A stretch of DNA of 64,000 nucleotides, taken from positions 1 through 64,000 of IMG/VR virus record IMGVR_UViG_3300050821_003047, one strand, 5' to 3'. The number at the start of each line of letters is the position of its first letter. Position 1 is the stretch's first letter. This document shows, piece after piece, positions 17,349 to 62,411 of the stretch. The DNA is from a virus. The position numbers and the translations under genes are program-made. The notes below the pieces were generated by a model. That model had not been told where the DNA came from. It saw only the letters and a program-made list of their open reading frames with translations, and made no database searches.

Positions 17349-17810
17349 ATGGGTTCTCCCTCATATTGGGGTAAGTTAGTAAATTTCGAAGCGGCCCTAC
17401 GCAAGCCTGGGATGGTTGCATTTGGGCTATTCAACCCGGCCGACAACCTCAATTTCATCGCCACGTTTCCCACCGGACCCACTCAGTTTTCTCAATCAAC
17501 AGTGTCGTTCTCTTCTTCTGCGGTCATAGACACATCGACTGCGGACGTGATTACGATTCTCCTCACGGCCCCCGTCACCAGCATGGTGTTGAATTACGGT
17601 GGCGGATCTCTCATACCAACTGGGCAGCGGTTTTGGTTGCGGATCGTGGAGGATTCGACCGGCGGATGGTCGTGTGCTTTGCCATCGAATCTAAACGTTG
17701 ACCAGTCCTATGCAATCGACATTGGCGCGAACCGGATAAATATCCTGCCGATGCGATGGAACTCTGTCAACTGGGAATTTTTCGAGGAACCGTTCTCGAT
17801 TCGGGTTTAG
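17349..17810 (+). CDS. Tail-fibre-like beta-rich protein (153 aa)
   Basis: TGAGGTGAAATAG precedes the ATG. Beta-rich throughout. Its end, INILPMRWNSVNWEF, resembles the common phage fibre end 'strand, turn, W-N-G/x-x-x-W'. The minus gene that meets it tail-to-tail ends in a similar way (SISLRWDGAGWLVL), so both may carry the same small C-terminal beta domain. Probably a receptor- or virion-decorating protein. Confidence 0.6.
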   Translation: MGSPSYWGKLVNFEAALRKPGMVAFGLFNPADNLNFIATFPTGPTQFSQSTVSFSSSAVIDTSTADVITILLTAPVTSMVLNYGGGSLIPTGQRFWLRIVEDSTGGWSCALPSNLNVDQSYAIDIGANRINILPMRWNSVNWEFFEEPFSIRV

Positions 17811-25192: not shown

Positions 25193-26566
25193 ATGAGCAT
25201 TACTGCTCAGACAGCGAACGTAATTCCAGCGATGTTGGAGCAGGTTCGCCCGAAACTCAGTTATTTTCTCGCGCAGAAGCAGTCCAAGTTCGCCAATCTT
25301 TTCAATAAGCAGGCGGAAAAGCATCAGGTCTCCGCGTTCACCGATGCGGCGTCTGGCGGATCTCCGACGTACACCGCCGGCGGTCCCGTCCTCGCTTGGC
25401 GCGTTCCCGTCCTCCTGAACATCGGCGGCGACTACCAAGCGATCTCACTGGACGGCGGCGATCTCGGAACCGGCAGCATGATGAACTCGGCCTTCATGGC
25501 CTTCGGGACGTTCGAAAACGATCTCGGGTTCAACCTGCCTTTGCGCGCTATTTACGGCAGCAAGGACGCGAAGCAGGCCATCACCAACGCTCTCCAATTC
25601 ACGCTCGGCAAGGCGATCTCGGAAATGGCGCTCTACAACGAGATTGGCCTCTTCCAGGATTCGACCGGAACGCTTGCCCAAGCGAATGGGACCGGATCCC
25701 CCGTTATCTCGGGTGGCAAGGTTACCTACAACCTGGAGTCCACTTTTGCCTATAACCGTATCCGCGGCAATAACCAGCTTGTAGACATCTACGACACGAA
25801 CAACCTGCTTCAGTTCGTTGGCGCGCGTGTCAGTAACATCAATTTCGCGTCGAATACGATCACGCTATCCGGCGTCTCGACGTACACGCCGGCGAATACG
25901 GATCAGATCATGTTTCCCAACATGGGACTCGGCGCGGCGCGTACCACTTACACTGCGGCCGCCGGATCATGGCGGAACGGGATCTATACGTTCAACACGT
26001 CCTCGACGTCTGGCTCTCTCGGCGGACTGTCCTATTCCACGGCGTATGAAATGGCCACGCCGGCCGTCAACGGGCAATCAGGCTTTTATACCCCGTCGCT
26101 GCTTTACAGCGGCAAGAGCCAACTCATCCAGCGGCGCGACGAGGAAGCCTACATGGGCGTAATCGGCGTCTGCCATCCCGCGCAGCGCGTCTCCTGGTAC
26201 CTCCAAGGAATCACGATCTCCAATTGGTTCCGCGGCCCATCGGACAAGATGATCGACATCGCTCCGAAGGGAACAGACTACGGCGATACCTTCATGGCCG
26301 GCGACGTGACCCACTACGTCAGCCGTTACGCGGGGAAGGCGCGCGTTGACTGGCTCGGGCCTTCGAATTTCGGATGGACGCAACTTGCGGACATCGATTT
26401 CGTGCAAACCCCCGAAGGACAGCGTATCTTCATGGGCCGATCGGCCAGCACCGGAAATCCACAGGCCGGCTTCCAGTTCTATATCGTCAACACGCGCCAA
26501 CTTTACAGCGTAGACCCCGGATGCGCGGTGATCTACTACTCGCTCGTGATCCCAACGGGGCAATAG
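25193..26566 (+). CDS. Major capsid protein
   Basis: 457 residues, Ala/Gly/Thr/Asn-rich and lacking Cys-rich or repeat regions, with GAAGGGGGACTC as ribosome site. It follows the scaffold gene and precedes a decoration-like protein. Features such as YLQGITISNWFRGPSD, GDTFMAGDVTHYVSRYAGKA and RQLYSVDPGCAVIYYSL fit a capsid fold (HK97 family). Identification is by position, size and composition, since no single motif proves it. Confidence 0.78.
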   Translation: MSITAQTANVIPAMLEQVRPKLSYFLAQKQSKFANLFNKQAEKHQVSAFTDAASGGSPTYTAGGPVLAWRVPVLLNIGGDYQAISLDGGDLGTGSMMNSAFMAFGTFENDLGFNLPLRAIYGSKDAKQAITNALQFTLGKAISEMALYNEIGLFQDSTGTLAQANGTGSPVISGGKVTYNLESTFAYNRIRGNNQLVDIYDTNNLLQFVGARVSNINFASNTITLSGVSTYTPANTDQIMFPNMGLGAARTTYTAAAGSWRNGIYTFNTSSTSGSLGGLSYSTAYEMATPAVNGQSGFYTPSLLYSGKSQLIQRRDEEAYMGVIGVCHPAQRVSWYLQGITISNWFRGPSDKMIDIAPKGTDYGDTFMAGDVTHYVSRYAGKARVDWLGPSNFGWTQLADIDFVQTPEGQRIFMGRSASTGNPQAGFQFYIVNTRQLYSVDPGCAVIYYSLVIPTGQ

Positions 26567-26995: not shown

Positions 26996-27547
26996 ATGCT
27001 GAAATTAGTCATACTCGCTCTGCTGGCCGGGCCGATGTTCGGCCAAAACGGTCAGATGGTCAATCAGGTCAGCGGCTCCCCGCCGAATTCCGTCGTTCAG
27101 CAGTTGCAGTATTCCGGATCGACGCTGGAGGCGGTTTGTTATGGGCCAGCGCTCAACCCGCTTACGACATTCTATAAATCCAGCAGCACCCTGACGAATA
27201 TCGCCGTATCCACCGGCACTGCCACAATCACGTTCTCCAGCACCTCATACCTCTGGCAAGGGGCTCAAATTACGGTAGCCGGGTCGGCGACGACGGCGCT
27301 CAACGGTTCGTACCGGGTGACGGCTGTTTCCGGATCGACCGCCACGTTTACCACGGCGGCGGTAGACGGAACGTATACCGATGCTGGACTGACCGTATCC
27401 ACTACCGCTCCGCTCCTGAACGCCAAAGTGTGGGCGATCCAAATTCTCGTCTACAGTGGGGCGAATTTGATTAACACGTATTGGGCCGGGGTGCCATCGG
27501 TCACGCCCGCCAATGGGTTGATTTGTTCGAATTGGGCGAGTTACTGA
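26996..27547 (+). CDS. Secreted-type beta protein with signal peptide (183 aa)
   Basis: The N-terminus MLKLVILALLAGPMFGQ has the positive start, hydrophobic core and small residues before a likely cleavage after Gly-16 or Gln-17. The rest is Ser/Thr/Gly-rich beta, including the segment ITVAGSATTALNGSYRVTAV, an 'x-V-x-G-x-x-x-x-x-N-G-x-Y-x-V' small domain repeated elsewhere in this phage. It starts the run of signal-peptide proteins. Function unknown; surface exposure of the product is implied by the signal. Confidence 0.6.
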   Translation: MLKLVILALLAGPMFGQNGQMVNQVSGSPPNSVVQQLQYSGSTLEAVCYGPALNPLTTFYKSSSTLTNIAVSTGTATITFSSTSYLWQGAQITVAGSATTALNGSYRVTAVSGSTATFTTAAVDGTYTDAGLTVSTTAPLLNAKVWAIQILVYSGANLINTYWAGVPSVTPANGLICSNWASY

Positions 27548-27834
27548 TGAAGGCATCGATTGTCCGACTCCTGCTCCGCGTGCTCAATAGCCAGTGGCTG
27601 AATCCCTCTCCGTGCCAATACGGATTCATCGGCAACGTTGATGCATTCAGTTATTCCAGCCTAGCCAGCGAAGAGAAACAAAAACCTGGCATTACGGTTA
27701 AGGAAGTTCTCCATCAAGCCGATCTGTTTCGTTCATGCCCGATTGGCAGAGGAGTTCAGGTACTCGAAAACGAGGAATGGAGAGACGCGAACGTTTGGGA
27801 TCTCCACGAGTTGAAAAACATGGGTAACCGATAA
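27547..27834 (+). CDS. Hypothetical protein (95 aa)
   Basis: Starts in an ATGA-type overlap with the previous gene. Helical N-terminus (KASIVRLLLRVLNSQWL) and an Asp/Glu/Trp-rich C-terminus (ENEEWRDANVWDLHEL). Unknown; a connector accessory by position. Confidence 0.55.
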   Translation: MKASIVRLLLRVLNSQWLNPSPCQYGFIGNVDAFSYSSLASEEKQKPGITVKEVLHQADLFRSCPIGRGVQVLENEEWRDANVWDLHELKNMGNR

Positions 27835-28524
27835 ATGGATACCCTGTTGCTCCACAACCTAAACCAACTCCTTGGCCGCGAACTGGGGCGCCACGGGGAT
27901 CGATCCATTTTCGCGTGGAAACATTCGGACGAGTTATTCTGGCCTGCTTTCCAGGCCGGCGAGACGACGCGGGAAAAGCGGGAACTCAAGATCCCCATCA
28001 TCGGCGGTGGCGAAGAGACATGTGTCGAGGAACTCGTTGTTCCCGTCTACCGCAAAGACCGGCAAGTCCGCAACTCGGCGTGGTACGTCACGAAGCTCCT
28101 GACGCCAACGGAGCTTATCTGGGGATGGATCGGGAAGCACGGCGATCCAGTGCCGGATGGCCGCGCGCCGCGCGATGAAGAACTCATCGGCATTTGGAAT
28201 GCGCGATTCCCTGGCGCAGATTTCCCATCTCGCGGATGGCGCGTGCCGACCGACGCCTGCTTGCCGCGATTCGAGGGCGGCCCGCGAGAGCCAAATTTGG
28301 CCGATACCGAGGACTTCATCGCCTGCATTCGCGAGCAAACGCGGCTATCATTCTCGCTGCGGCTGGATGACATGCTCCAGTACGAGGACAGGAAGTCAGA
28401 TGAGCAACGGCGCGAGATCGAGGCCGCCGTGCGGGATTCGTTCCCCGCATTTCTCAACCCGGCCATCGGCAAGCGCAGCAATTTTGTTTCGTTTCCGTGG
28501 AGTAGGAAGGACAGGTTAAACTAA
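27835..28524 (+). CDS. Hypothetical protein (229 aa)
   Basis: Directly follows the previous gene. A mixed alpha/beta protein, acidic, with many Trp/Arg/Asp residues (LIWGWIGKHGDPVPDGRAP). No membrane or Cys motif. Sits in the region where head-completion and connector genes are expected. No family recognised. Confidence 0.6.
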   Translation: MDTLLLHNLNQLLGRELGRHGDRSIFAWKHSDELFWPAFQAGETTREKRELKIPIIGGGEETCVEELVVPVYRKDRQVRNSAWYVTKLLTPTELIWGWIGKHGDPVPDGRAPRDEELIGIWNARFPGADFPSRGWRVPTDACLPRFEGGPREPNLADTEDFIACIREQTRLSFSLRLDDMLQYEDRKSDEQRREIEAAVRDSFPAFLNPAIGKRSNFVSFPWSRKDRLN

Positions 28525-28529
28525 GCCGT

Positions 28530-28874
28530 ATGATGCAAGCAAACCAGCAGATCAACGAACCGACCCTAACAGGTGCGGTTCAGCAGATTCACGATCACAT
28601 CGCACTTGCGGAGCAACGATTAGCGATACTGCGCGGTCATTTTTGGGGCGAAGGGGAAAGCGGAAGCAATCGCCCTATGCCTACAACCCTCCGTGGCATG
28701 ATCGATGACATCGGCACTCGGCTAGCGTCTCTGTGCGGTGATCTGGCAACGATAAATCAGCGTGTCGGATGCACGCCGGAGCCGAATATGTCATTGCCTA
28801 CGTCACTTGGACTCGCGCAAGGAATTGTCAGCGGCTCCTCTAACGCAACGCAGAACTGGCAACCCCAGAGGTAA
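28530..28874 (+). CDS. Hypothetical protein (114 aa)
   Basis: N-terminal helix (GAVQQIHDHIALAEQRLAILRG) followed by a second helix and a polar tail. Looks like a small assembly factor. Unknown. Confidence 0.6.
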   Translation: MMQANQQINEPTLTGAVQQIHDHIALAEQRLAILRGHFWGEGESGSNRPMPTTLRGMIDDIGTRLASLCGDLATINQRVGCTPEPNMSLPTSLGLAQGIVSGSSNATQNWQPQR

Positions 28875-28876
28875 CC

Positions 28877-29605
28877 ATGGCTCAATACATCCCCGACGTC
28901 AGATTCATCGCCTCGATCTACCCCGGCGTCCTGCCGACGATTCGCCGTCACTACGGCCCCAGCCGCCAGAGCGAGGGCGTTGGCGCGCAGCGATCGACGG
29001 CGTTCACCCTCCAGCCCGTCGCGCGCGGCAAGAAGCCGTTCGTGCTGCCGCTCTACGACTCGTTCGAGAACGTGCTCGATATCGTTTCGCTATCCAGCAT
29101 GGGAAACAAGGCAGAAAAGCCGCGCCTGCCCAAGCCCGTGCCGGTGGAAACCATCGTGGCCGATCTGCTGAAGGAGTGGACGGGTGGATTGTTCAACGTG
29201 CCACAGGGTGCCATGCCGGGAGTCATTGAGATTCGACCCATGAAGGTCGAACTGGAAAAGTGGGAAAAATCCGGCACGCTTCCCGGCGCTACGGTGTCCG
29301 AACTTGACCAGATGGAGACGCAGCAGACTTTGTATTTCGAGTACCTGTTCACCGAAGGCGAGCGACTGCACAAGCAGAACAACTGGAAGGAAATAACCGA
29401 CACGATGCGGACGGCCGCAGAGTGGCTGGGCCATGAGCGAGAATGGAGCCATCGCGCCATCGCGCGTGACAGTGGCCCATGCCCGTGGTGCCAAGCCATC
29501 GTTCCCAATATCGCCATCGTCTGCAATACGTGTGGCCGCCAGGTGCGCGAGACGCCGCCGCATTTGGCGCACCTTGAGAAGCCCAGTGCGGCGCTAAGGC
29601 CATAA
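28877..29605 (+). CDS. Zinc-ribbon hypothetical protein (242 aa)
   Basis: An alpha/beta body followed, near residue 200, by GPCPWCQAIVPNIAIVC then NTCGRQV: two CxxC pairs, a zinc ribbon. It precedes another zinc-ribbon gene. Possible role in head or connector assembly; not recognised. Confidence 0.6.
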   Translation: MAQYIPDVRFIASIYPGVLPTIRRHYGPSRQSEGVGAQRSTAFTLQPVARGKKPFVLPLYDSFENVLDIVSLSSMGNKAEKPRLPKPVPVETIVADLLKEWTGGLFNVPQGAMPGVIEIRPMKVELEKWEKSGTLPGATVSELDQMETQQTLYFEYLFTEGERLHKQNNWKEITDTMRTAAEWLGHEREWSHRAIARDSGPCPWCQAIVPNIAIVCNTCGRQVRETPPHLAHLEKPSAALRP

Positions 29606-29606
29606 C

Positions 29607-29936
29607 ATGCTCTGTCCAAACTGCGATGGAATGCTGAACGCGACGGGATGCCAAGCTTGCGGCTGGAAGTTCGGAGATCCGCACGTGCGGGATGAACGGG
29701 TATTCCCGTTCAACGCGCGGGCGCAATACCCGGAGGGGGTTGCCAAGGGTATCGTCCGGTTTGCCAATCGGGCGGATACTCCAGACGTCCCGCACGAGGA
29801 GGCCAGGGAGGCTGCTACCGTTCCCGTCGTATCTGCGGCTCCGGACCCGGCCTTAAGCGCGCCAGACCCAACGGCGGGTGTTCCTGCCACCGCCAAGCCA
29901 AAACCACGTAGCAAGGGCGACGTGACAATCCAGTGA
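29607..29936 (+). CDS. Zinc-ribbon protein with disordered tail (109 aa)
   Basis: Starts 2 nt after the previous stop. N-terminal CPNCDGMLNATGCQACGW is a four-cysteine ribbon, followed by a Pro/Ala-rich, disordered C-terminal half. Reads like a small adaptor. Unknown. Confidence 0.6.
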   Translation: MLCPNCDGMLNATGCQACGWKFGDPHVRDERVFPFNARAQYPEGVAKGIVRFANRADTPDVPHEEAREAATVPVVSAAPDPALSAPDPTAGVPATAKPKPRSKGDVTIQ

Positions 29937-29949
29937 ACCGTTAAATGAC

Positions 29950-30936
29950 ATGGCCGAATGTACAGTCTCCAATGTCTTCGATGACGTTCGGTCCCTGCTT
30001 TCTGACACCCAGATAGCAGGCGGGGAAATTTTCACCAATAATTACCTGCTGACTGGGTATGCAACTGGCGGCGTCATCGGCAGTGGTTCTCTTCTCGGGG
30101 AACCCTACCGCACGATGTACAGCAAGCTGACCGGCGGCAGCAAGCGCGTCCAGCCCACGGCCTACGTCGTTCTGCCGCCGAACACCACCGTCCTGATCCC
30201 GACCACGTACAATATCGTGGATTTCTCCGAACCGGAAATGATTGAGGAATGCGCCGCGACGTCCTCAATCCCGATCGCCACCACGGACACGTCCACGCCC
30301 ATTAATGTGACCACCGTGGCTCCGCATGGCCTTGGCGCGACTGGCAGCATGAATGAGGGCCAGGTGTCTGGCGTGGCGAATACGGCGGCTCCGTGGGGGA
30401 ATTGGTTTGCTACCGTCACGAGTCCTACGACTTTCTCTTTGAACGGCAGCGCTTCAGACGGGATCGCAGGCACCGGAGGCGCTTTTTACCCGGCCAGTAA
30501 CCAGCCGTTCACGGAGGTTTTCCCATGCGACTTCGCGGCCGCCTTGGATGGATTCCCGCAGTCCACGCTGGGGAATTACCTCTGGGCCAATGGCCGTCTG
30601 ACTTTCCGCGGTGCCACCGGACCAGTTCTGCTACGGCTGACGTATTACGCTTCCGGAACGGCCCCGACGAATCCCAACTATGTAATTTGGATCGACAATG
30701 CGCGGGACTTTCTGGCGCACGCCACGGCGTGCAATGCGGCGCGTTCGAAGCAGTGGTGGAGCATGTTCGAGCGACTCCGAGACAAGGCTTACGGAGATCC
30801 ATCGCACCCGGAAGAATTGAGCCTGCTGGATTTGTTCTGGCAGAGTCAGGTAATGGCAGATCAACGCGGGCCATCGAGACGGCAAAGACCATTCAGGGAT
30901 CGGAGATATAAATGGGGAAGCTATTTACTGGGCTGA
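29950..30936 (+). CDS. Putative head-tail adaptor protein (328 aa)
   Basis: The ends read like a phage head-tail adaptor: a helical N-terminus (NVFDDVRSLLSDTQ), and a helix plus basic C-terminus (RRYKWGSYLLG). In the middle (~110-180) it holds a small beta domain with APHGLGATGSM then SPTTFSLNGS and GIAGTGG, of the recurring 'HGL..V..V...TF.L.G..G.Y..GG' type. Its C-terminal codons overlap the signal peptide of the next gene by 25 nt. Assignment is inference. Confidence 0.55.
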   Translation: MAECTVSNVFDDVRSLLSDTQIAGGEIFTNNYLLTGYATGGVIGSGSLLGEPYRTMYSKLTGGSKRVQPTAYVVLPPNTTVLIPTTYNIVDFSEPEMIEECAATSSIPIATTDTSTPINVTTVAPHGLGATGSMNEGQVSGVANTAAPWGNWFATVTSPTTFSLNGSASDGIAGTGGAFYPASNQPFTEVFPCDFAAALDGFPQSTLGNYLWANGRLTFRGATGPVLLRLTYYASGTAPTNPNYVIWIDNARDFLAHATACNAARSKQWWSMFERLRDKAYGDPSHPEELSLLDLFWQSQVMADQRGPSRRQRPFRDRRYKWGSYLLG

Positions 30937-33269
30937 TATTTTCGCTCTTAACCGTGGCCAGCGCCGGGGCGCAGTGTACCCCTGGATTTGATCCTCTTCT
31001 CGGCAAGATCACCTGCCCGCCGGCCGGGGCTCGCGTCTCCAATGCATTCGCAAGCTCGACGGCCGCAGTCACGACGCTGACGGTGGCCGTGAGTCCGCCC
31101 GCCGCATCACTTGCGGCAATCACAACCGCTTGCTTCACGGGAACTACCACACTCACCCCATTCACGGCTTACACGATCGATTCCGCCAGCACAACATCAA
31201 GCGTTATTTTTGACTTCGCCTCCACTGCAAATATCCGATGTACGGTAAATGCGACGGGAGCAGGCCCAGCCGGAACGCCTGGCTCAGCCGGACCACAGGG
31301 TCCAGCCGGTCCCGGCCTCGTAATCGACATGGCCAGCCAGGCTGGAATAGACAGCACGGGAGCCACGGACTCCGCGGCCGGCGCGCGCGCGGTGGTGGCT
31401 GGGCTCGGCTCTACCCCTGCGCAATTGTATTGGCGCACTGGAACCTACAAGTTCTCAACCTGTGGAGCCACGACAGAATCAGCAGTACGCATAAGTTCCG
31501 CATTAAGCATGCGCGGCGACGGGCCAGCGAACACCATTTTTACGGACGTAACGTCTCCGACCTGTGGCGCCCTGTTCGGGTTCTTCTGGAATCCAGGGAC
31601 GGCACCGGTCGACGATTATTCGTGGGAGCAAAACACGGGCTATGCGCTTACGGCCTCGACGCTCGCTATCGGCGCGTCATCCATCACGCTGAGCACGCCG
31701 TCGCAGGCTTCCAATTTCCCCACGGTTGGAGCGTTCGTCTATGTCCGAGGATCGAGCATCGGAACGGGGATGTATCACGGCGAACTAAACAAAGTCGCCA
31801 TTGCGGGAAACACCGGCACGGGCGTGGTGGGGCTGCTGTGGCCGTTATCGTCTGATTTCACGGGCGACACCAGCCCGCAGTTGAATGTTGTGACGAACGC
31901 CGAAGTTGTCCAGAATATCTCGATTCAGGGCATAGGGTGGCAGCATCACGGGAGCTCTTTCGTGATGGCGCAGCAGTTGAATATCGACATTTTCAACAAC
32001 AATTTCACGTTTGTAGGCACGGGTTGCTCAATCGAGACGGCGCAGACCAACTCGATGCGTGGCGTCCACTATCACGACAACGTAGTTGTGAACCCATGCC
32101 AAACGGGCGTCGATGCAGCCCGTAATCCAACAGCGTGGCTAATCGAGAAGAACACTATTACGGCGCAGGTAAATGTTGCCGAGGCGGGAGCGGACGTGGG
32201 CGTTGTGGATAATGACGTGGCGTGCATTATCAATTTGCCGTGCATCCAAACCACGATCACAGGTACGCGGATCGCACTAAACAAGGTGCGCTACACCTAC
32301 ACTGGCAGTGGGGTGGCGTTCGCGATTGGCGATAACAATGGCGGCGGGGCCGGGGCAATCAACACCACGGTGACCGGCAACACGATCACGGCGGCCAATG
32401 CTCCAGGTGGAAGCGTCAACGTGCCGGGCATCCTCCTTACCCAGCCTACGACCGTTGCGCACGACAACAACATCAACTCGGATTCGACCTGCATTGTCGT
32501 AGACGGCTTCGGTATGCAGGTGGCTCAAAATCTATGCAACCTCACCAACAATCTCGGTTTCGGCGGCATGTTGGTCGAGAGCCCCGGTTCACATGCGGTC
32601 CTCATTAACGGGTTCACGATGACGGCCTCGGCGGGCGTGACGCCGCCATCCTGCATTTGGATCGCGAATAATGGCGCGCAGACGGCCGGCACGCAGGCGT
32701 CTTTTGACCACGTAAAATGCGTTGCGTCCTCGAACGGGTTTAATATCATCAACGGCACGAACGATAAGCCAATCATCGGGCCTTCGGTATTCACGGGCAG
32801 CACGCAAATTCAGCCCACGGCTGTTACTGCGACCGTGAATGGTGCGGTGACGGCTCCCGGTTCGCCTGTGGGTAATTGCTATAAAGACAATTTCACATGG
32901 GGGCCGTGCGGGAGCGGAGGTAGCGGCAACGCAAGTGCCTATAGTGGTTCATTTTCGAGTTGCACTTCCTGTTCTATCACTCATAATCTAGGCACGCTTT
33001 ACCCGCAATGCACCATATACGACTCTAACGGATGTGGAATTGGATCGACCGGTACGGGACCGGGAGTTGGCGGTAGCTGCGTGGCCACTACGTTGACAAG
33101 CTTTCAAGGACTCACGACGAGCGTTTGGAATTTCCTCTTATCCTCGGCCACAAGCGGCCATGTGACGTGTAGCGCGGTATCGGCGGGCAGTGCGCTGTCT
33201 TGGGCGGCCCTAACCAACAGCCAATGGACGGGTTTAACAAACGGTCAATGGACCGGAATGACGAATTGA
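30912..33269 (+). CDS. Signal-peptide beta-helix spike with collagen-like segment (785 aa)
   Basis: N-terminus MGKLFTGLIFSLLTVASAGAQ is a good Sec signal peptide. Around residues 115-135 a collagen-like run of G-P-A-G-T-P-G-S-A-G-P-Q-G type. From ~140 to 620 strands of the pectate-lyase-like beta-helix type (VNISIQG-like turns, IDIFNNNFTF, VTGNTITAAN). The C-terminus has three SxWTGLTN-like copies. This is a tail spike/depolymerase in form but it has a signal peptide, which normal virion proteins lack. It begins inside the preceding gene. Confidence 0.7.
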   Translation: MGKLFTGLIFSLLTVASAGAQCTPGFDPLLGKITCPPAGARVSNAFASSTAAVTTLTVAVSPPAASLAAITTACFTGTTTLTPFTAYTIDSASTTSSVIFDFASTANIRCTVNATGAGPAGTPGSAGPQGPAGPGLVIDMASQAGIDSTGATDSAAGARAVVAGLGSTPAQLYWRTGTYKFSTCGATTESAVRISSALSMRGDGPANTIFTDVTSPTCGALFGFFWNPGTAPVDDYSWEQNTGYALTASTLAIGASSITLSTPSQASNFPTVGAFVYVRGSSIGTGMYHGELNKVAIAGNTGTGVVGLLWPLSSDFTGDTSPQLNVVTNAEVVQNISIQGIGWQHHGSSFVMAQQLNIDIFNNNFTFVGTGCSIETAQTNSMRGVHYHDNVVVNPCQTGVDAARNPTAWLIEKNTITAQVNVAEAGADVGVVDNDVACIINLPCIQTTITGTRIALNKVRYTYTGSGVAFAIGDNNGGGAGAINTTVTGNTITAANAPGGSVNVPGILLTQPTTVAHDNNINSDSTCIVVDGFGMQVAQNLCNLTNNLGFGGMLVESPGSHAVLINGFTMTASAGVTPPSCIWIANNGAQTAGTQASFDHVKCVASSNGFNIINGTNDKPIIGPSVFTGSTQIQPTAVTATVNGAVTAPGSPVGNCYKDNFTWGPCGSGGSGNASAYSGSFSSCTSCSITHNLGTLYPQCTIYDSNGCGIGSTGTGPGVGGSCVATTLTSFQGLTTSVWNFLLSSATSGHVTCSAVSAGSALSWAALTNSQWTGLTNGQWTGMTN

Positions 33270-33276
33270 GGATTAC

Positions 33277-34194
33277 ATGAAAAGACTACTTTTACTCGTA
33301 CTGCTGTCGTCTATACCGGCCTTTGGTCAGTGTATAGGTTCGGCATGGACCACATCAGCAAGCGGCTCAACTACAGCGCAAGGTGAAATCAACCAGAAAC
33401 CCGCGTTCCAATCCTGCCCAGGAACACCCGCGTCCAATTCTCTGGCCTGCACTGTGGGACACGATATAGGAATCAATTCCTCGAACGGGGACTTTTACAC
33501 CTGCTCAGTAACGGGAACTCCAGGGACATGGGTAAAGATCGGTCCCGGCGCGGGTGGATCGGGATGCGTACCGTCTGGGTCGGCGGGTGACCTTCTCGTT
33601 GACAGCGGTTCAGGAACTTGTAACTCGTCAGCGGATTTTGTTTACACCACGCATACGATAGCCGGAGGTGCATCGGGCATCTTGGACCTACACCTAATGG
33701 GAACGAGTGCGTTCAAGGTTCCTGGGGGATTCACGACTGGCGTGTTGCACGTTACAACCTCGACCGGCGCAACGGCTGGTGGCCTAGTTAGCCTCACTGC
33801 GGACGTTACAGGTGTGCTACCAGCGGCCAATGTCGCAGCGGCATTATCGAGCACCACGAGCGTTAACGGAACGACTATTCCGTCCAGTGCCACTCTTGCC
33901 CAGGCAGTAGCTAGTGGTTCTTCCACATTGGGCACGAGCGCCATTTCTTCTGGTGCCTGTGCGACTGTAGTAACGACAACAGCAACAGGTGCAGCAACAA
34001 GTGGTCTTGGTAGTAGGATCACGGCTACTCCTAGTGTTGACCCAACTGGAGTAACGGGCTACGGCCCATCCGCTTCAGGATCTCTATACGTTTGGGTTTA
34101 TCCCACAGCCAACAATGTGAACTTTAAGGTCTGCAACAACACATCAGGGTCCATCACGCCGTCAGCCTTGACCATGAACTGGATCGTCCAATGA
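33277..34194 (+). CDS. Signal-peptide fibre-like protein (305 aa)
   Basis: MKRLLLLVLLSSIPAFGQ is a textbook signal peptide. A low-complexity Gly/Ser/Thr/Ala middle with one cysteine pair, then an end SLYVWVYPTANNVNF...GSITPSALTMNWIVQ, typical of the beta ends of phage fibres. Likely to be a trimeric fibre. Its stop overlaps the next ATG by 4 nt. Confidence 0.65.
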   Translation: MKRLLLLVLLSSIPAFGQCIGSAWTTSASGSTTAQGEINQKPAFQSCPGTPASNSLACTVGHDIGINSSNGDFYTCSVTGTPGTWVKIGPGAGGSGCVPSGSAGDLLVDSGSGTCNSSADFVYTTHTIAGGASGILDLHLMGTSAFKVPGGFTTGVLHVTTSTGATAGGLVSLTADVTGVLPAANVAAALSSTTSVNGTTIPSSATLAQAVASGSSTLGTSAISSGACATVVTTTATGAATSGLGSRITATPSVDPTGVTGYGPSASGSLYVWVYPTANNVNFKVCNNTSGSITPSALTMNWIVQ

Positions 34195-34949
34195 AGATGC
34201 TATTTTTTATAGCCGCTCTCACTATAAATGCTAGTGCTCAGATACCAGTTGGGGGCGTCACTGCGGCGGGAGGCATTATAAACCCCTTCATTGTTTCCAG
34301 CACGGCGAACGCCGCATCAACCGCTCCAGCGGTGACAACCGGAATGAATACCACTGGAGCAACACTTCTAACCTTAGCTATTTCAAGTTTTTCAAATGAC
34401 CCAGATGGAAGCGCCAGCATTGTAGATGCTGTAGGCGGGAACGCAGCTTGTAATAATGTTGGTGGTGGACCGCCAGCCTGGACGCCATTTGGTACTAGTT
34501 ACGCAAGCGGATCTAACGTAATAACAAATTTGTTCTATTGCACCCCTGCTCACACGGGTGCGGGTCATACCGTCACGGTAACTGGGCTACAGTTTCCAGC
34601 GGTTGTGTTCACAGCCTGGAACATAAAAACAACTCTGGATGTGGTTAATGGGGCAGGAAGCTCAGGCAGCGTCACGACGCTATCATCCGGCAGTAGCGGC
34701 TCTCCCGCAGGGTCGGGAGAGCTATTTATCACCGGCTACGGTTCCAACGGCACATCCACAGGCGCGCTGAGCGTTAATTCTGGTTGGACGATTCCGACTA
34801 ATGGCACAATCTTTAACGGAGCCAACGGGAACACCAGTTTGAACACCGGGATAGCTTGGCAGATTGGCGGCGCGGGCGCTCTTACCGGGACTTGGACTGA
34901 CACGGGCAACAGCACCACGATGACCGCCTTTGTGGTGGCATTTAAATAA
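34191..34949 (+). CDS. Signal-peptide beta protein (252 aa)
   Basis: MKMLFFIAALTINASAQ is a short signal peptide. The rest is Gly/Ser/Thr/Asn-rich with repeated beta strands, e.g. VTVTGLQFPAVVFTAWN, and ends in WTDTGNSTTMTAFVVAFK. Reads as a secreted or fibre-type beta sandwich. The DNA here is visibly more A/T-rich than the head genes. Unknown partner. Confidence 0.6.
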   Translation: MKMLFFIAALTINASAQIPVGGVTAAGGIINPFIVSSTANAASTAPAVTTGMNTTGATLLTLAISSFSNDPDGSASIVDAVGGNAACNNVGGGPPAWTPFGTSYASGSNVITNLFYCTPAHTGAGHTVTVTGLQFPAVVFTAWNIKTTLDVVNGAGSSGSVTTLSSGSSGSPAGSGELFITGYGSNGTSTGALSVNSGWTIPTNGTIFNGANGNTSLNTGIAWQIGGAGALTGTWTDTGNSTTMTAFVVAFK

Positions 34950-34951
34950 CT

Positions 34952-37900
34952 ATGCGAACTCTATCTCTACTACTGATCCTTGCTGGCGCGGCGCAGGCAC
35001 AATTGACGGTCACTCGCGTTTACTGGGAATCGGGAACCAACCCAAGCCCCGACTTCAACCAGTGGACGAATATGAGTTTTGACCCGTTCATTGGCAAAAC
35101 AATCCTGCATACAAACAACGAAGTCGTACAGAGCGGCTTCCCACAAAACATCTTCTCTGATTCACTGTTTACTTGGGACGGCGGGACGCACGGCACCATC
35201 CCTGATGTATCTGCTCTAGTGATAAAGAGCTTTCTTGGTGGCGCTGACCAACCATGTGGTTCAGTGATAAACAATTACCCCCGCCGCCACCATCCCGAAA
35301 TTACCCAAATGGTTGACACCAAGCGGCATCTATTTATAGATGGTCCCGGCCCTTGCACCAGCACCTCTGGAAGCTGGAGCGGCCTGCCAATTAATGGCTG
35401 GTGGTGGACTGACACCTCTACATTGACGACGTGGGGGCAGTTATCGGAGACTGCCTCTTCAACTCCAGTTACACTGCCTCTATCTGCCGGAAATCAATCC
35501 TTTACCGTTGCCAGTTGCGGACCAGCCCAGGTAGGAGGAATCACCGGAGCGCAATCAGTCTCGACCGGAGCATGGATAACCGGGAACCTCACCTCTTGTT
35601 CCGGAACCACCCTAATAATCAATGTGCTGTTCAGCGGCGGTACTGGCACATTCTCTGATTGGAATATCACCTTAAGTAATGACTGGAGTCAATCTGCCAC
35701 TTATGACAGCACCGATGACGCCATATTTTCCACCGACCGCGAAGGCAACACAGTCTCAGTAACTCGCGTTTACTGTACTACGATGCCGGTCGGCGGCGGA
35801 ACTCCAAGCGGTGTCCTTTCTGCTCAACAAACCGCACGGGGAGTTTGCACAGTCCCTGACCAATGGGTAATTCTTAATACCAATACCCCCCCGGACGGAA
35901 TGGCTCTGGCTGCTTTTCGGTACGATGCGACCACTGACTTGCTTGTATTCTACGGTGGGTTCAGTAGCCAAAATCCCAGTGGAGAAATGACTGAAACATG
36001 GGTGCTTTCTCCGTCCTCATGTGCAACGACCTGTAACTGGGTTAAGCCAGCGACCGCTAACTCTCCGGCGACTCAGCCTAGCACTCAATGCTGGCAACCG
36101 CCTAGCGCATCCTGTACCCCTGCTGGTCTAATTGGATTCGCGGGTGATGTCGCGAATGGAACATTTTATTACTTCCGGCCCGACGTAACGTCAGAACTGT
36201 GGGCCTTGAATCTCACAACCCTAACCTGGACTAAGATGAGTTTAACTGGCTACAATGCGCCAAATCCAATCTATATGGCGTATGACTCACTCCACCAAAA
36301 GCTAATCTCGTACGGTAACTGGGGTAGTCCGGCTCTCGACCTTGTAGAGATTCAGCTACCGACGACCGCTTCGGGCCAGTTTAGAACTCTTGGGACATGG
36401 GACGGGACGAACATAAAGTGGCTGGAGGTAGCTGGCGAAATCTCGTCACTGAGCGCGGGTGCGACCGGAACGGTGACGCTCACGGGTCCAGGAATCAGCA
36501 TACCCATCAGCGTGCAGGAGGCGATCTATCCCGGAGGGCCGACTGCGGGGATCGCGAGAACGAATGAACCGTTCCGTCAGGGAATCCCGATTCCGTTATC
36601 GGCGGGGTTGACCAGTACGAGCGGACTTAGTCTGAGCAACACTAACGTAGTCTCGAATTCCAACATGGCCGTGGATAACGGCACCAACATCACCGTGGCG
36701 ACCGGCGCTTGCACGTTCACGTTGGTTAAGGCCCATCACAACGGCCTGGATACCGTGGTATGCGGATCGACCACCGTGGTCTCCACCGGCACCGCAGTAG
36801 GCTTTGCGCTGACCGGCCCGCTCCCCACGGCTACCTACCCCGGCAATGCGACGTGCTCGCCGCAGTCGGGCGGATCGACCTGTGCTACTCTCTACACAAG
36901 CGCTCACGACCCTAATTCTACGTGCTCCATCGAGGTCAACGGGCCGCTCTATGCAGACATTCTCTGCACGGGCGTTCACGGCGACGGCTCGGGACACACT
37001 TATATGGGATGGACGGCCCGCTATTATTTCTGGGCCGGGGAAAGCTACGTAAAGGTCACGCAGAGCCTGCGCAATGCCTTTTACGACGGCACGAATAACG
37101 ATTTCACTACCGCATTCAAAGGGTTCAAAAGCTTCGAATTTCGCACAACCCCGGCAATCTCAGGCACTCTGAGCTATCAAGTAGCCGTGGATTCGGCGTC
37201 CTGCACTAGCGGCGTGTGCTCCGGAACCATGACCACGAGCGACACCGTGACCGTTTACCAAGCGCAAAACACGTCCTCTATATCCCAGTGGGGCGACTGC
37301 TCGACCGCGTGCCTAAACCTCTACACGCCTGACGTAGGGTATGCCGCAAAAAAGAACGGCACCACGCTGGCGTCTGATACCACCGGGAATGTCTTCGTTG
37401 GCGGTTGGGCAGACATCGCCAACGGATCGGGTGTGGGTGTCCAGATCGGCGTGTATCAGGGGGCGGGATATTTCCCCAAGTCCTGGGAGTTCGACAGTGG
37501 AACTGACGTTCGCATTGGGTTGTGGCCCTCGGAGAGTAGCCAGAACTACTACCTTGGATACCCACAGTACGACACGCAGGACATCTACCTGAACTTTCAC
37601 ACGTCGGCACTGTCCAATCCCACGCAGAGCTTCCAGAAGCTACAGACTTACCTACTCGCCCGCGCTCCTATCTCACAGTACAACACTGCTGGCGTCTTCC
37701 CCTACCCTCTCGTTCCGGCCGCAACCCAAGACATCTACTACAATACTGTAGGGCCAGCCTCGAATCCAACAATCGCGGCCACTCAGTTCTGTCTAAATGT
37801 CTCTACTGGCTGCATTGCGGACTACGCTCCATTTGCCTACCGTAATTACGGTTGGGCTGGTGGAACTGGAACCAATCAAGTAGAGTTCCGCTGGAGCGAT

Positions 37901-39394
37901 CTCCAAAACTTCTTGATTCGCGGTTATACGGGACGCTGGCTTAACTCATCACACTTTTACCGAATGGAGCAGGAAAAAACATGGCCTAGGGCAGATGGTA
38001 CAGCGCTCGGCGGTCCAAGTAACTTTACTTGGCGCTCAGAACCTATTGGAAGTATGAACACGGTTGATCCAGCAGGCGGTACGCCAAACGGGTTCATTTC
38101 GGACAATAGTACTTTATTTTTTACCAACTACTTCCAACAAGATGGCCAGCACACTCACTTGTGGGGCATCAACGACTACTATATGATGACCGGCGATGAG
38201 ACGATGCATGATGCGATCCTTGACGGTTACTTAAACGTATTCCTGGACACGCGGACTTATATTTCGGGTACGACATACACTAGTGGATTCTCGAATACCC
38301 AAAGTTCCCGATCGATCGGCAGCACGATGACGGCTGGAACAGCCCTATACCAACTGCTAGCCGACACAGGCAACTCCAACTCCTCATCCGTGTTGAGCTA
38401 CCTCGACACGCTTTACACCAACACCGTCCTACCGACATTCTGCACTACCGCTCTATGTAATATAAACGTTCCGCCCAGTGTCGGTATAAGTCTCCAGAGA
38501 GGATTCCCGTGGGGCGGTAGCGGACTTGATAATCAATGTACGGGAGGATCTCAACTACCGGCGCAACACTTCTTTTTCCCGACTACCCTAGCAGAGGGCG
38601 TCTGGCGATACCGCGCAGCGAAAGGATCTTCGTGGAGTGGCTACACTACCGCTCTCGATTACATCGATGGCATAACCAACTTCCAGCTTCATGAATTCGT
38701 AATTAATGACGGTTCAGGAATCTGGAGCAATGGTTCATTAGGGTTCCAGTTCCCGACTAATGGGTGGCGTTACGACATACAACTTACGGTCCCTAATAAC
38801 TGTGGCAGTGGCGAGTACAATCCGAATCCCGGCCTAGAGGGGATGTGGAATACTTGGTACTACCACTCGCAGATTTATGGAGCACTACCCACAGTCCAAC
38901 TCCAGAATGTAGCTTATGCATTTGATCAAAACCAGAGCGGTGGAGTTCCAACTAACCCCGGCGGCGGCACGTCAGATTGGGGTATGTATCAAGCGGCTAA
39001 CGTGATAAATCTGATAGAGAATCCGCCAGTTGGCACCCTTCAGGATCTAACGATCACTAGTTTCGTAGATCACGGGGGAGGTTCCTACACCATCGGCTGG
39101 ACAACACCCACAAGCACAACCGCGCTCAGAGCTAAATGGGGTCTGACTCAAATCGTAGATTGGATTGGATTCGATAATTTCAATGGCGTATACATTGGCA
39201 ACCCGACGACAACCCAAAACTGGTTCGCCTCAACCGAAGTGCCAAGTATGCCGTCTCCATCTGCCGGATCGCAGACGGTGACTGTTTCGACTGGACAGAC
39301 AGGCCTGACCGCACCGAATTTTATGGTACGGGCAATGACTTCAGGCTCTCTTCCTCCGAGTACGGGGATCAAGATGCCTACGGCGATTAGATAG
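34952..39394 (+). CDS. Large secreted depolymerase-like protein (1480 aa)
   Basis: Signal peptide MRTLSLLLILAGAAQAQ. The N-terminal ~450 residues have kelch-like repeats (LLVFYGGFS, TWVLSP, LISYGNWG). Then a domain with RYYFWAGESYVKVTQSLRNA near 690-710, the type of strand seen in RIFT-barrel lyases (PcRGLX/YetA-like), and a large helical part with Trp/Tyr (YRMEQEKTWPRAD, FPTTLAEGVWRYR) that could be an (alpha/alpha) barrel catalytic domain. A C-terminal Fn3-like segment follows. It may cut a surface glycan. Composition changes along the gene: 36.4-37.6 kb is more GC-rich than the flanks, suggesting mosaic origin. Confidence 0.6.
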   Translation: MRTLSLLLILAGAAQAQLTVTRVYWESGTNPSPDFNQWTNMSFDPFIGKTILHTNNEVVQSGFPQNIFSDSLFTWDGGTHGTIPDVSALVIKSFLGGADQPCGSVINNYPRRHHPEITQMVDTKRHLFIDGPGPCTSTSGSWSGLPINGWWWTDTSTLTTWGQLSETASSTPVTLPLSAGNQSFTVASCGPAQVGGITGAQSVSTGAWITGNLTSCSGTTLIINVLFSGGTGTFSDWNITLSNDWSQSATYDSTDDAIFSTDREGNTVSVTRVYCTTMPVGGGTPSGVLSAQQTARGVCTVPDQWVILNTNTPPDGMALAAFRYDATTDLLVFYGGFSSQNPSGEMTETWVLSPSSCATTCNWVKPATANSPATQPSTQCWQPPSASCTPAGLIGFAGDVANGTFYYFRPDVTSELWALNLTTLTWTKMSLTGYNAPNPIYMAYDSLHQKLISYGNWGSPALDLVEIQLPTTASGQFRTLGTWDGTNIKWLEVAGEISSLSAGATGTVTLTGPGISIPISVQEAIYPGGPTAGIARTNEPFRQGIPIPLSAGLTSTSGLSLSNTNVVSNSNMAVDNGTNITVATGACTFTLVKAHHNGLDTVVCGSTTVVSTGTAVGFALTGPLPTATYPGNATCSPQSGGSTCATLYTSAHDPNSTCSIEVNGPLYADILCTGVHGDGSGHTYMGWTARYYFWAGESYVKVTQSLRNAFYDGTNNDFTTAFKGFKSFEFRTTPAISGTLSYQVAVDSASCTSGVCSGTMTTSDTVTVYQAQNTSSISQWGDCSTACLNLYTPDVGYAAKKNGTTLASDTTGNVFVGGWADIANGSGVGVQIGVYQGAGYFPKSWEFDSGTDVRIGLWPSESSQNYYLGYPQYDTQDIYLNFHTSALSNPTQSFQKLQTYLLARAPISQYNTAGVFPYPLVPAATQDIYYNTVGPASNPTIAATQFCLNVSTGCIADYAPFAYRNYGWAGGTGTNQVEFRWSDLQNFLIRGYTGRWLNSSHFYRMEQEKTWPRADGTALGGPSNFTWRSEPIGSMNTVDPAGGTPNGFISDNSTLFFTNYFQQDGQHTHLWGINDYYMMTGDETMHDAILDGYLNVFLDTRTYISGTTYTSGFSNTQSSRSIGSTMTAGTALYQLLADTGNSNSSSVLSYLDTLYTNTVLPTFCTTALCNINVPPSVGISLQRGFPWGGSGLDNQCTGGSQLPAQHFFFPTTLAEGVWRYRAAKGSSWSGYTTALDYIDGITNFQLHEFVINDGSGIWSNGSLGFQFPTNGWRYDIQLTVPNNCGSGEYNPNPGLEGMWNTWYYHSQIYGALPTVQLQNVAYAFDQNQSGGVPTNPGGGTSDWGMYQAANVINLIENPPVGTLQDLTITSFVDHGGGSYTIGWTTPTSTTALRAKWGLTQIVDWIGFDNFNGVYIGNPTTTQNWFASTEVPSMPSPSAGSQTVTVSTGQTGLTAPNFMVRAMTSGSLPPSTGIKMPTAIR

Positions 39395-39410: not shown

Positions 39411-41630
39411 ATGGCTTACTTTCCAGGCGACGTAAACGAATTCGAAATCCAGCAATTCCAGGGGTCTGCTCAAGCCAGCGACCCATATTCTCTCGACCAG
39501 AATCATGGCCTTTATTCTCAAAACATTGACTTCATAGTGAGCCCTAGCGGACTCGTTCAGGCCACCCCGCGGCGCGGAACCTCGCAGATAGTCCAGATCC
39601 CGAGTGGAGATCACGCGGTCACGAGTCTTGCGCCGTGGTATTTCAACAACGGAGGCGTTCAGGACTGCTACGCGGTGTATTATGCTCCTTCGGTTGGAGC
39701 GAAAGCGTGGAGCCAGCAAGCAGCCAACTTCGTCTCTTTGGTGCCGGTGACCGGAGCCAAATCCCTGTCTTTCGTCCCTGACGGCGTCCGCGGATATTTC
39801 GCGTTCTGCGATGCGTCCGGCCGCGTGGGGACTACGAGCGGATACGTCTACGGCCTATCATATGCGGCCGCCGATCAATTGTTCGGCCCTCCGGTGCAGT
39901 CCACCGTGGTGACTATTGTCGTAGATACCACGCACGGTAGCGGAGTCGTCACCGCCGGCAATCACCGGCTGGGCATCGTGTTCACAACACGCTCGGGATA
40001 CACGGGGGCTTTGAGTTTGGTAGATTCCAATGGCGTATTTGCGCCGATCACGGCAATGGCTCCGGATGGGGTTCACGAATGGGGCATCCTCGTGACCTTC
40101 GTATCAGTGCCAGCCTACCTCAGCGGAGGGACATTCCAGATTGTCCTGACGAGCAGTTCGAATCCGGCTGAATATTATTTGGTGCCAGGCGCAATCGGAA
40201 ACGTGCCAGCCTCGCCCAGTTTTGTGGAGGTCATCGTCAGCATCACCGATGGGGATCTGGTTACCGGGACAAACGTAACGGAAAACCAAAATCTGCTTAC
40301 GGCTTCGCAGTCTGGGGCGCCTCCGTTTCTCCCGTCCGCCATTTTTGCCTATTCCTCAAGGCTCGGGTACGTCGCGATCGATTCCGCTGGCTTCCCGGTG
40401 GTCTACATCTCAGACCAGAACGACTATCAGTATTTGACGGCTGGATTCCACGCGATCTATCTGGAGGGCCGCCAGATCCCTATCCAGGGCGTTTCCATCG
40501 ACACCACGCTATTTATTGCCACGCTTTCGGGTCTGTATTCCTGTTCCGACAACGGCGGCCAGCCGGTCACGTGGACGCCTCCGGGGCGCGTTGACGGGTC
40601 CGTCGGAGTGCTTGCGCCATCGTGCATTTTGTCGAATAACGGAAGGATCCTGCTGGCCTCTGAGAAGGGGTTGTTTTCCTATACAAATGGGAATTTCCCA
40701 ACAATCCCCCTCTCGTATTGGCAGGCTCCTGATTGGAACCGCATTAACTGGAATGCGCCCACGCAGGTTCAGGTGGTTGACGATGCGCTGGACCGCATCA
40801 TTCGCGTTATTGCGCCGCTCAAGGTTTTGGTCACGTCGGCGAGCAATACTAACCCCATAACGGTAATAACAGGCGTGCTGGTGAACGGGCAGGTTGTGGC
40901 GGAACCGCATTTCCTGACGACTGGCATGAGCGTGACCATCGTTGGCGTTGGTGGCAACACGGCGGCAAACACCGCGGCAGTGGTGACGGTTACCGGACCG
41001 AGCACGTTCACGATCCCGGTGGCGGGCAATGGAGCATACACCAGCGGAGGCGTCGTGACGCCAAATGAGCCCACGGCCGAGATGGCGTGGAATTATTCCG
41101 ACGGGGAAACGCCAGGGATGCCGTATTCGATAAACGGCTTCTCAGCGTTCAGAAGGACGGCGGTAGGGGTGATCCGCAATATCGCCACTGGATACGATGA
41201 GGTATGGTACGGGCCGGGTGCGAGTAATCCTGGCGGCATCGTGCGGCGGGTTTTGCCTACGGACGCGCTGATCCATCGCGACGTGGATATGTCGGGCAAC
41301 CCCACGGCTATCGTGTCTTTGTTGGAGACGGGCATCTGTCCGGGGGCCGCGGACTTAAACGCCACGCTTCATGACTACGCAGGCGCGCATTTCCGCGTTT
41401 ATGGGTCCGGGGCGTTGGTGCTGACGGCGTTCGGGCTAGACCATGCGGTGAGCGTGACACCGGCTGCTTCGCCACTGACGTTGGCCAGTAAGCCGGGAAC
41501 GGAGGTTTTAGTTAAGTGGAGTTTACGGTCGGAGCAGCAGACTATTTTGCTGGCGATGAGCACCGTGGACGCTTTTTATATACTGTCGTTAATCAGGGAG
41601 TACTGGTCGGATTCGCTGGGGATACGGTAG
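39411..41630 (+). CDS. Beta-propeller-like tail tube protein (739 aa)
   Basis: Begins MAYFPGDVNEFEIQQFQG and continues with repeated strands (HAVTSLAPWYFNNGG, GYFAFCDASGRVG, ILLASEKGLFSYTNG) typical of the tube or stabilisation proteins of podoviruses (T7 gp12/P22 gp10 type), which form the distal tube and ring of adhesins. Around 470-550 it has a small domain PHFLTTGMSVTIVGVGGN ... FTIPVAGNGAYTSGG of the recurring type. It ends at TAG 41628-41630, after which the frame stays open for 33 more codons. Confidence 0.72.
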   Translation: MAYFPGDVNEFEIQQFQGSAQASDPYSLDQNHGLYSQNIDFIVSPSGLVQATPRRGTSQIVQIPSGDHAVTSLAPWYFNNGGVQDCYAVYYAPSVGAKAWSQQAANFVSLVPVTGAKSLSFVPDGVRGYFAFCDASGRVGTTSGYVYGLSYAAADQLFGPPVQSTVVTIVVDTTHGSGVVTAGNHRLGIVFTTRSGYTGALSLVDSNGVFAPITAMAPDGVHEWGILVTFVSVPAYLSGGTFQIVLTSSSNPAEYYLVPGAIGNVPASPSFVEVIVSITDGDLVTGTNVTENQNLLTASQSGAPPFLPSAIFAYSSRLGYVAIDSAGFPVVYISDQNDYQYLTAGFHAIYLEGRQIPIQGVSIDTTLFIATLSGLYSCSDNGGQPVTWTPPGRVDGSVGVLAPSCILSNNGRILLASEKGLFSYTNGNFPTIPLSYWQAPDWNRINWNAPTQVQVVDDALDRIIRVIAPLKVLVTSASNTNPITVITGVLVNGQVVAEPHFLTTGMSVTIVGVGGNTAANTAAVVTVTGPSTFTIPVAGNGAYTSGGVVTPNEPTAEMAWNYSDGETPGMPYSINGFSAFRRTAVGVIRNIATGYDEVWYGPGASNPGGIVRRVLPTDALIHRDVDMSGNPTAIVSLLETGICPGAADLNATLHDYAGAHFRVYGSGALVLTAFGLDHAVSVTPAASPLTLASKPGTEVLVKWSLRSEQQTILLAMSTVDAFYILSLIREYWSDSLGIR

Positions 41631-61770: not shown

Positions 61771-62411
61771 TGGGCCGATTTCCTCCTGCGCGATCCTTCC
61801 CTAATCGCCGCCGCGATTCTTTCCACTACGTCCGGCGGCCGTTTCCTGCCTAAAAGAGCGGCGCTTCGTTTGGCGTTTGATTCCTCAGACCTGCCAACTA
61901 TTGCAAGTTGCTTGCGAGCGTTAGCGGCCGCCGCGATTATTGCCGGCGAAGTGCGCCCTTTCTTGGCGGCTGATATTTTGGCTTTCCATTCTGGAGTGAA
62001 TACTCGGCCCTTCATCTGCTGACGACGAAGCTGCTTAAGTTCATCGGACTGGACGAAACCGGGAGATCCCGATCCTCCATCGGCTACGTTAAAAGCCTCT
62101 TCCCGGTAATATTCGATCCACTTGCGCTCTGCCGACTCCCAGTCTGCGGAAGTAGATTCCAAAATCCTCAAAGACGGAACTATGGATGCATCCAGTAGAG
62201 ATTTTATCCACGCTCCTTTGAGAGTGTGAATATCTCTTCCTTTTCGAGCATAGCTAAGATGGCCATGCATTCTGCGAGCGGGATTGGCCGAGCACCCAAC
62301 ATAACGAACCAATCCATCCCGCGGATCGATGAGTGCGTAGACGTGGCGGATATGCTCACGCAGGGCGTTTAGGTCTTGGTCTTGATGCGGGCGCAGCGTG
62401 GGGAGGGTCAT
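61767..62411 (-). CDS. GIY-YIG endonuclease with helicase-like N-terminus (214 aa)
   Basis: After a 20-residue start (TLRPHQDQDLNALREHI) come HVYALIDPRDGLVRYVGCSA (23-42), with conserved Arg in PARRMHGHL, a Glu near WESAERKWIEYY, and the N-x-x-D-G-G-S-G ending. Two or more NUMOD3-like DNA-binding repeats (TPEWKAKISAAKKGR) form the C-terminus. A free-standing homing endonuclease. The start resembles the helicase start (SLRPYQEKEIHELRECL), and the stop overlaps that helicase's start codon, as expected if it inserted into the 5' part of the helicase gene. Confidence 0.87.
   Translation of the reverse strand: MTLPTLRPHQDQDLNALREHIRHVYALIDPRDGLVRYVGCSANPARRMHGHLSYARKGRDIHTLKGAWIKSLLDASIVPSLRILESTSADWESAERKWIEYYREEAFNVADGGSGSPGFVQSDELKQLRRQQMKGRVFTPEWKAKISAAKKGRTSPAIIAAAANARKQLAIVGRSEESNAKRSAALLGRKRPPDVVERIAAAIREGSRRRKSAQ

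Follow-up and report, generated by a model that had tools for sequence, protein, structure and literature searches.

Signal-bearing genes in the tail region

The stretch analyzed here (the window) is from a soil phage and comprises positions 1 to 64,000 of IMG/VR virus record IMGVR_UViG_3300050821_003047, i.e., most of a 65.5-kb record with a GC content of 57%. Five of its open reading frames (ORFs) encode proteins that begin with Sec signal peptides and are situated among presumed virion genes. For virion proteins, the usual site of assembly is the cytoplasm. A preliminary description of the window had noted these five leaders and the placement of four of the genes in a continuous run; both observations are confirmed, with the run spanning 30912-39394.

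26996-27547, plus strand: 183-residue signal-bearing protein; signal 26996-27043, MLKLVILALLAGPMFG before Q; Cys48 and Cys177 conserved
30912-33269, plus strand: 785-residue signal-bearing putative spike, probably a right-handed beta-helix; signal 30912-30971, MGKLFTGLIFSLLTVASAGA before Q
33277-34194, plus strand: 305-residue signal-bearing protein; signal 33277-33327, MKRLLLLVLLSSIPAFG before Q
34191-34949, plus strand: 252-residue signal-bearing protein; signal 34191-34238, MKMLFFIAALTINASA before Q
34952-39394, plus strand: 1480-residue signal-bearing protein resembling PcRGLX-type polysaccharide lyases; signal 34952-34999, MRTLSLLLILAGAAQA before Q

All five ORFs open with ATG at these coordinates, and their leaders have the traits of Sec substrates of signal peptidase I, namely a positive n-region, a hydrophobic h-region, and small residues at −3 and −1 (except in 26996, which has Met at −3). 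Leaders were graded with a home-made, rule-based scorer rather than SignalP, on the basis of n-region charge, an uncharged 8-residue core, and the −3/−1 rule. Scores at the first start codon are 4.84 (26996), 6.07 (30912), 5.92 (33277), 6.30 (34191), and 6.46 (34952); among 1327 ORFs from eight Markov-1 shuffles of the window, 6 pass at the first start and 13 at any start. The weakest signal, that of 26996, is hydrophobic in three aligned homologues, where the Q is invariant. Among the other convincing genes of the window, none passes the scorer; a weak pass at 26577 was dismissed, since the homologue in the related genome G002 has no hydrophobic core at that place. The cleavage regions named earlier (near FGQ, GAQ, FGQ, SAQ, and QAQ) are located correctly, with the refinement that the predicted cut falls before the Q (FG/Q, AGA/Q, FG/Q, ASA/Q, and AQA/Q), such that Gln is the +1 residue in five of five signals. 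On present evidence, the five proteins are very probably exported via Sec.

The genes of the run are tightly packed. The start of 33277 lies 7 nt past the stop of its neighbor, 34191 shares 4 nt (ATGA) with the preceding gene, and the start of 34952 follows a stop at a distance of 2 nt. The start of 30912 is 25 nt inside the 3′ end of 29950, an overlap that is identical in G002 (10870/10894). The run is bordered by a putative adaptor gene and a nozzle-like gene, and a putative major capsid protein (MCP) gene lies further upstream.

25193-26566, plus strand: 457-residue putative MCP, assigned by position and conservation; query for finding relatives
29950-30936, plus strand: 328-residue putative adaptor, assigned by position and weak matches; upstream border of the run
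39411-41630, plus strand: 739-residue putative nozzle-like virion structural protein without a signal, assigned by position and weak matches; downstream border of the run

PHROGs matches in the window include TerL (14790) and the portal (20440), and searches of the five signal-bearing proteins against PHROGs and Pfam returned almost no matches.

Conservation in relatives

Searches with the capsid and nozzle proteins recovered nine relatives (G001-G009). Signal-bearing genes occupy the same slots or a relocated run in G001, G002, G003, G004-G008, and G009, so the signal-bearing set that the preliminary description proposed to look for in related phages is found, its positions kept despite sequence divergence. 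G002 has the closest arrangement, with a signal-bearing protein of 184 residues past the capsid gene region, followed by proteins of 864, 550, and 1219 residues past the adaptor. In G001, a run of four signal-bearing genes flanks that block at its other end, following the capsid gene. The 183-residue family (26996) has a homologue near the MCP gene in seven of the nine relatives at 55-70% identity; the leader has changed yet is still hydrophobic, and the Q is invariant. More generally, the leaders differ in sequence, while charge, hydrophobic core, small −1 residue, and Gln at +1 are maintained.

No cultured phage was matched by tblastn with the MCP, the nozzle, 34952, 33277, and the spike of a relative, and a scan for the motif FDPxxGxxTCP recovered G002 as the only real relative. 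A possible lipobox (IASC) occurs in the G002 protein at 13466.

Recurrence in other Acidobacteriota phages

Tunturi_1 and Tunturi_2 are cultured podoviruses of Tunturiibacter (PMC11924767). Their 63-kb genomes (PP887698 and PP885685) each contain five signal-bearing genes past the tail protein gp11, which encode large, Cys-rich tail-region proteins that are also rich in Ser, Thr, and Gly.

gp12, signal-bearing
gp13, signal-bearing
gp14, signal-bearing, tail spike or pectin lyase
gp16, signal-bearing
gp17, signal-bearing, virion structural protein

Sequence comparison detects no homology between these proteins and the five of the window. gp17 of Tunturi_1 has a Pfam Beta_helix match below the cut-off, and no further large spike candidate was noticed among the structural genes of Tunturi_1 examined. 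The available passages of the source paper make no mention of signals on the tail proteins of this pair and name proteomics as future work (PMC11924767).

A search of 396 Acidobacteriota genomes yielded two prophage-like regions. A 63-kb contig of G283 carries a terminase, a portal, a nozzle-sized protein, two signal-bearing genes, and a phage lysozyme, and the region adjoins pfkB, a sugar transporter, and GH92; its 1143-residue protein, the start codon of which is less certain, has a C-terminal part in common with 33277 (E 2e-8). In G083, three coupled signal-bearing genes lie immediately 5′ of a terminase-like gene and a portal gene. The C-terminal domain of 33277 (residues 88-303) recurs at the end of a 1707-residue G083 protein encoded by the first of these three genes, with 49% identity in the genome search and E 4e-31 in another comparison. 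Judged by their predicted leaders, signal-bearing tail-region proteins extend beyond the window to separate phage lineages, including a cultured podovirus.

Controls lack such signals: the fibres and spikes of Tunturi_3, the scanned tail regions of Tunturi_4 and Tunturi_5, crAss001, B124-14, and Cellulophaga phi38:1 (the first 50 kb for the three Tunturi phages and phi38:1). Therefore, the trait is not shared by all Acidobacteriota phages, nor is it a general property of phages whose hosts follow the Q-rule, i.e., the preference for Gln at +1.

An opposite-strand spike and replaceable spike bodies

In most relatives, a signal-bearing spike is encoded between the terminase and portal genes on the opposite strand, and its mature N-terminus conforms to QQ[IV]DWxSQ[IV]RN(KP). 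The window holds a variant of this gene.

17807-19534, minus strand: spike homologue without a signal; starts MIDWVSEIRDKP

This leaderless start coincides with the position at which the mature protein begins in signal-bearing relatives (GA/QQIDWISQVRNKP). Starts inside the proposed signal, which had been named as a finding that would speak against it, are absent from the relatives; this copy of the window itself is the exception. It retains the N-terminal motif and has lost the second Cys of a pair that is intact in four signal-bearing copies; in this family, signal and cysteine pair go together, as seen in this single case. The gene and its relatives offer a natural comparison of exported and cytoplasmic spike versions.

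Three relatives (G005, G006, and G008) are ~99.8% identical over their aligned parts, but their spike bodies are unalignable and the flanks match again; only the first ~43 residues of the spike, i.e., the signal and the QQIDWISQVRNKP anchor, are shared. Likewise, in Tunturi_1 and Tunturi_2 (~98% identity), the signal and N-terminus of gp17 are retained, residues ~50-395 differ, and the C-termini agree again. These two cases, and not the five proteins of the window, provide the pattern of a constant anchor with an exchangeable body. Such a combination is a classical mark of a virion-attached receptor-binding protein. The retention of signal and anchor alongside replaced bodies favors receptor-binding spikes that are fitted to particles after lysis.

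Host link, glutamine at +1, and cysteine content

A search of bacterial genomes with a capsid protein alignment gave one relative, on a contig that is binned as Acidobacteriaceae palsa_421 and also holds a relative of the portal; the binning is possibly wrong. Across all records, 26 of the 31 signal-bearing phage proteins have Gln at +1. In 522 kb of the palsa_421 metagenome-assembled genome (MAG; L051-L110), small-x-small-Gln occurs in 24 of 43 predicted signals versus 66 of 417 genes overall, and the phage signals match the style of this Acidobacteriota MAG. The Q-rule has been called Bacteroidetes-specific by Bochtler et al. (PMC5837995), and an Acidobacteriota version is for that reason worth separate checking. 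Host-style signals with Gln at +1 beside tail genes provide a signature for candidate spikes in poorly annotated soil phages as well as a hint of the host phylum.

Cysteine makes up 2.05% of the mature signal-bearing proteins of the window versus 0.69% of the other tested proteins (Fisher p 1e-8). The Cys count is even in 28 of the 31 signal-bearing proteins, or in 20 of 23 when one per family is taken (p 2e-4). High, even counts are what disulfide-bonded proteins of an oxidizing compartment should display. Parity serves as supporting evidence only because the comparison set (22 other proteins, some from relatives) also has even counts, zeros included.

Protein functions and folds

Residues 515-1476 of 34952 align with a signal-bearing PcRGLX-type chromosomal protein of Acidobacteriota (30% identity over 1068 columns, E 4e-114) whose gene neighbors include glycosyltransferases and a polysaccharide flippase; another homologue likewise lies in an exopolysaccharide (EPS) cluster. 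Against PF21345, 34952 attains 16.9 bits, under the cut-off of 23.5, while the Acidobacteriota homologues pass with 44.1 and 47.3 bits. Weak Kelch matches lie ahead of the lyase-like part at residues ~329-429. Based on this homology to EPS-cluster proteins, host exopolysaccharide is a likely target.

The putative spike 30912 and its G002 homologue share a conserved N-terminal element, CTPxFDPLLGxxTCPP. Foldseek returns weak matches of 30912 to beta-helix lyases and tailspikes, whereas for 26996 the best match is to the stem domains of endosialidase tailspikes (E 4e-3); both come from low-confidence models. The G002 homologue has a near-threshold collagen match. Since the AlphaFold2 models of 26996 and 30912 (built from 4 and 2 sequences) have pLDDT values of 57 and 34, the fold matches are suggestive only. 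Structure prediction, one of the checks proposed earlier, has hence returned tailspike-like beta folds on models of low confidence. At that level of confidence, both 30912 and the G002 homologue resemble spikes of the beta-helix type. The five-protein set as a whole is probably glycan or receptor directed.

Export, docking, and alternative roles

Export, a glycan target, and docking after lysis are what we infer from the leaders, gene positions, +1 residues, cysteines, replaced bodies, recurrence, and EPS relationship seen in the sequence. The explanation that best fits them, held with middling confidence, is that spikes and depolymerases are exported via Sec, acquire their fold in the periplasm, and attach to virions once the cell has lysed, with the surplus acting free. 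An infected Acidobacteriota cell would export spikes, fibres, and a polysaccharide-lyase-like protein via Sec, and signal peptidase I would trim them just before glutamine. In the periplasm, the exported proteins would fold and form disulfides, and they would act on receptors and on polysaccharide of the host surface or matrix. Lysis would free cytoplasmic virions and periplasmic spikes together; at least some spikes would then attach to tails by way of the conserved stretch that follows the cleavage site, and the surplus would work as free depolymerase. Docking onto finished particles is physically reasonable, given that in vitro addition to particles is possible for the tailspike of P22 and the fibres of T4. 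The presence of the exported proteins on virions is, in our judgment, evenly poised. More tentatively, a class of Acidobacteriota tailed phages may complete their virions in two compartments, with heads and tails made in the cytoplasm and Sec-exported, disulfide-bonded spikes that dock at lysis.

Several observations weigh against spikes that are exported and then docked. The evidence for the signals is drawn from sequence and from a home-made scorer, and the fold models have the low confidence described above. The spike gene is opposite in strand to the late genes and thereby resembles an independently expressed accessory gene. 34952 is as similar to host-type secreted enzymes as to a spike. 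In G083, one protein of the signal-bearing run directly upstream of the terminase-like gene (G083:C5 46929-47933; L166:1929-2933) is M28-type peptidase-like by eye and no obvious virion part. The fibres of Tunturi_3, Tunturi_4, and Tunturi_5 lack signals, which shows that phages of this host genus can do without the trait, and the absence of another spike in Tunturi_1 was judged from annotation and length alone.

The main rival is a real possibility that nonetheless stops short of being probable: the proteins may be secreted, non-virion lyases, adhesins, and peptidases on the envelope or in the matrix, which degrade exopolysaccharide, free progeny, or modify the infected or lysogenic cell at its surface while another protein, e.g., the nozzle, recognizes the host. 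Such effectors would account for the signals with their cysteine pattern, the kinship of 34952 with signal-bearing EPS-cluster proteins, the peptidase-like member of a prophage run, and the strand of the spike gene, and signal-bearing Q-rule genes of Porphyromonas phages, whose function is unknown, are a precedent (PMC10367356). They fit less well with the position of the window genes between presumed adaptor and nozzle genes, with tail-type domains and collagen-like repeats, with the constant N-terminus and replaceable body that are the hallmark of virion-attached receptor binders, and with Tunturi_1, where the signal-bearing proteins are the only large spike candidates noticed.

The preliminary description had proposed that fibre, spike, and depolymerase-like proteins may be exported as a set to coat the cell, block re-infection, free progeny from the matrix, or be fitted to particles after lysis. 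Export gains support from the signals of relatives, the other lineages, the cysteines, and the homology of 34952. Among the proposed roles, the replaced spike bodies favor fitting after lysis, the EPS-related lyase favors matrix degradation, and no finding of this analysis points specifically to coating or superinfection exclusion.

It is improbable that the leaders are uncleaved, i.e., membrane-interacting or assembly segments of virion proteins assembled in the cytoplasm. Cytoplasmic assembly is the usual route, and the signal-less spike at 17807-19534 shows that synthesis of the body does not depend on a leader; however, charge, core, small −1 residue, and Gln at +1 persist while the leaders vary, cysteines are enriched and even in number, and the leaders resemble those of the Acidobacteriota MAG. 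Lysogenic-conversion morons that are expressed from prophages and have no role in lytic growth are a similarly remote prospect. Two prophage-like regions do hold such runs, but the window proteins searched yielded no integrase, the available passages on the Tunturi phages predict integrase or recombinase genes for Tunturi_3 to Tunturi_5 only, and not for Tunturi_1 and Tunturi_2 (PMC11924767), and the signal-bearing genes are interspersed among late structural genes of like strand. Finally, a start-codon or chance artefact, with true starts downstream and leaders untranslated or coincidental, would suit the weak ribosome-binding sites 5′ of several starts and the low codon scores in parts of the run, but it is strongly disfavored by the independent recurrence in Tunturi_1 and can in practice be excluded because the starts are coupled or overlapping (with the 25-nt overlap kept in G002) and conserved in relatives.

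Relation to known systems

Podovirus tailspikes (P22 gp9 and the K1F and phi92 endosialidases) resemble the proteins described here in several ways: the bodies are beta-rich and probably beta-helical, the N-terminus is conserved while the body is replaceable, the genes lie near tail genes, and the action is glycan-directed. The known tailspikes are made and assembled in the cytoplasm and have no signal peptides, whereas the window-type proteins have Sec signals and many, mostly even-numbered cysteines. The run of gp12-gp17 in Tunturi_1 and Tunturi_2 is a similar signal-bearing tail-region arrangement with no detectable homology to the window set. Q-rule genes of Porphyromonas phages (Nixviridae; PMC10367356) likewise have host-style signals that expose Gln at +1, but these are of unknown function and from a Bacteroidota host, while the present proteins are spike-, fibre-, or lyase-like and encoded beside tail genes in Acidobacteriota phages. 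Export of endolysins through Sec is a classical finding (PMC6116005); fOg44 Lys44 and signal-arrest-release (SAR) endolysins also use host Sec before lysis, but they are murein hydrolases of the lysis system and not spike-like. The PcRGLX-like lyases (PF21345) of Acidobacteriota EPS clusters are homologous to residues 515-1476 of 34952, and both are signal-bearing; 34952 differs in being phage-encoded, in its extra N-terminal part with weak Kelch matches, and in its place within a tail gene run.

No report of Sec signals on tailspikes was found in the literature searched by full text, where subscription papers are mostly absent. The suggestion of a new secreted phage module stands within that scope, and the system would become categorically new if docking after export were shown. 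Periplasmic production of spikes, if real, would alter virion assembly, disulfide folding, timing, and the evolution of host range, and infected cells might affect their surroundings before lysis. The cultured pair Tunturi_1 and Tunturi_2 makes the question testable.

Other genes of the window

Two presumed structural proteins, at 39411-41630 and 42197-43843, each have a weak E1_FCCH-like domain match. The late gene block closes with a histidine phosphatase superfamily protein (PF00300) at 51958-53148, an odd location for such an enzyme. At 61767-63205 on the minus strand, genes like those for a homing endonuclease and ParB adjoin a helicase.

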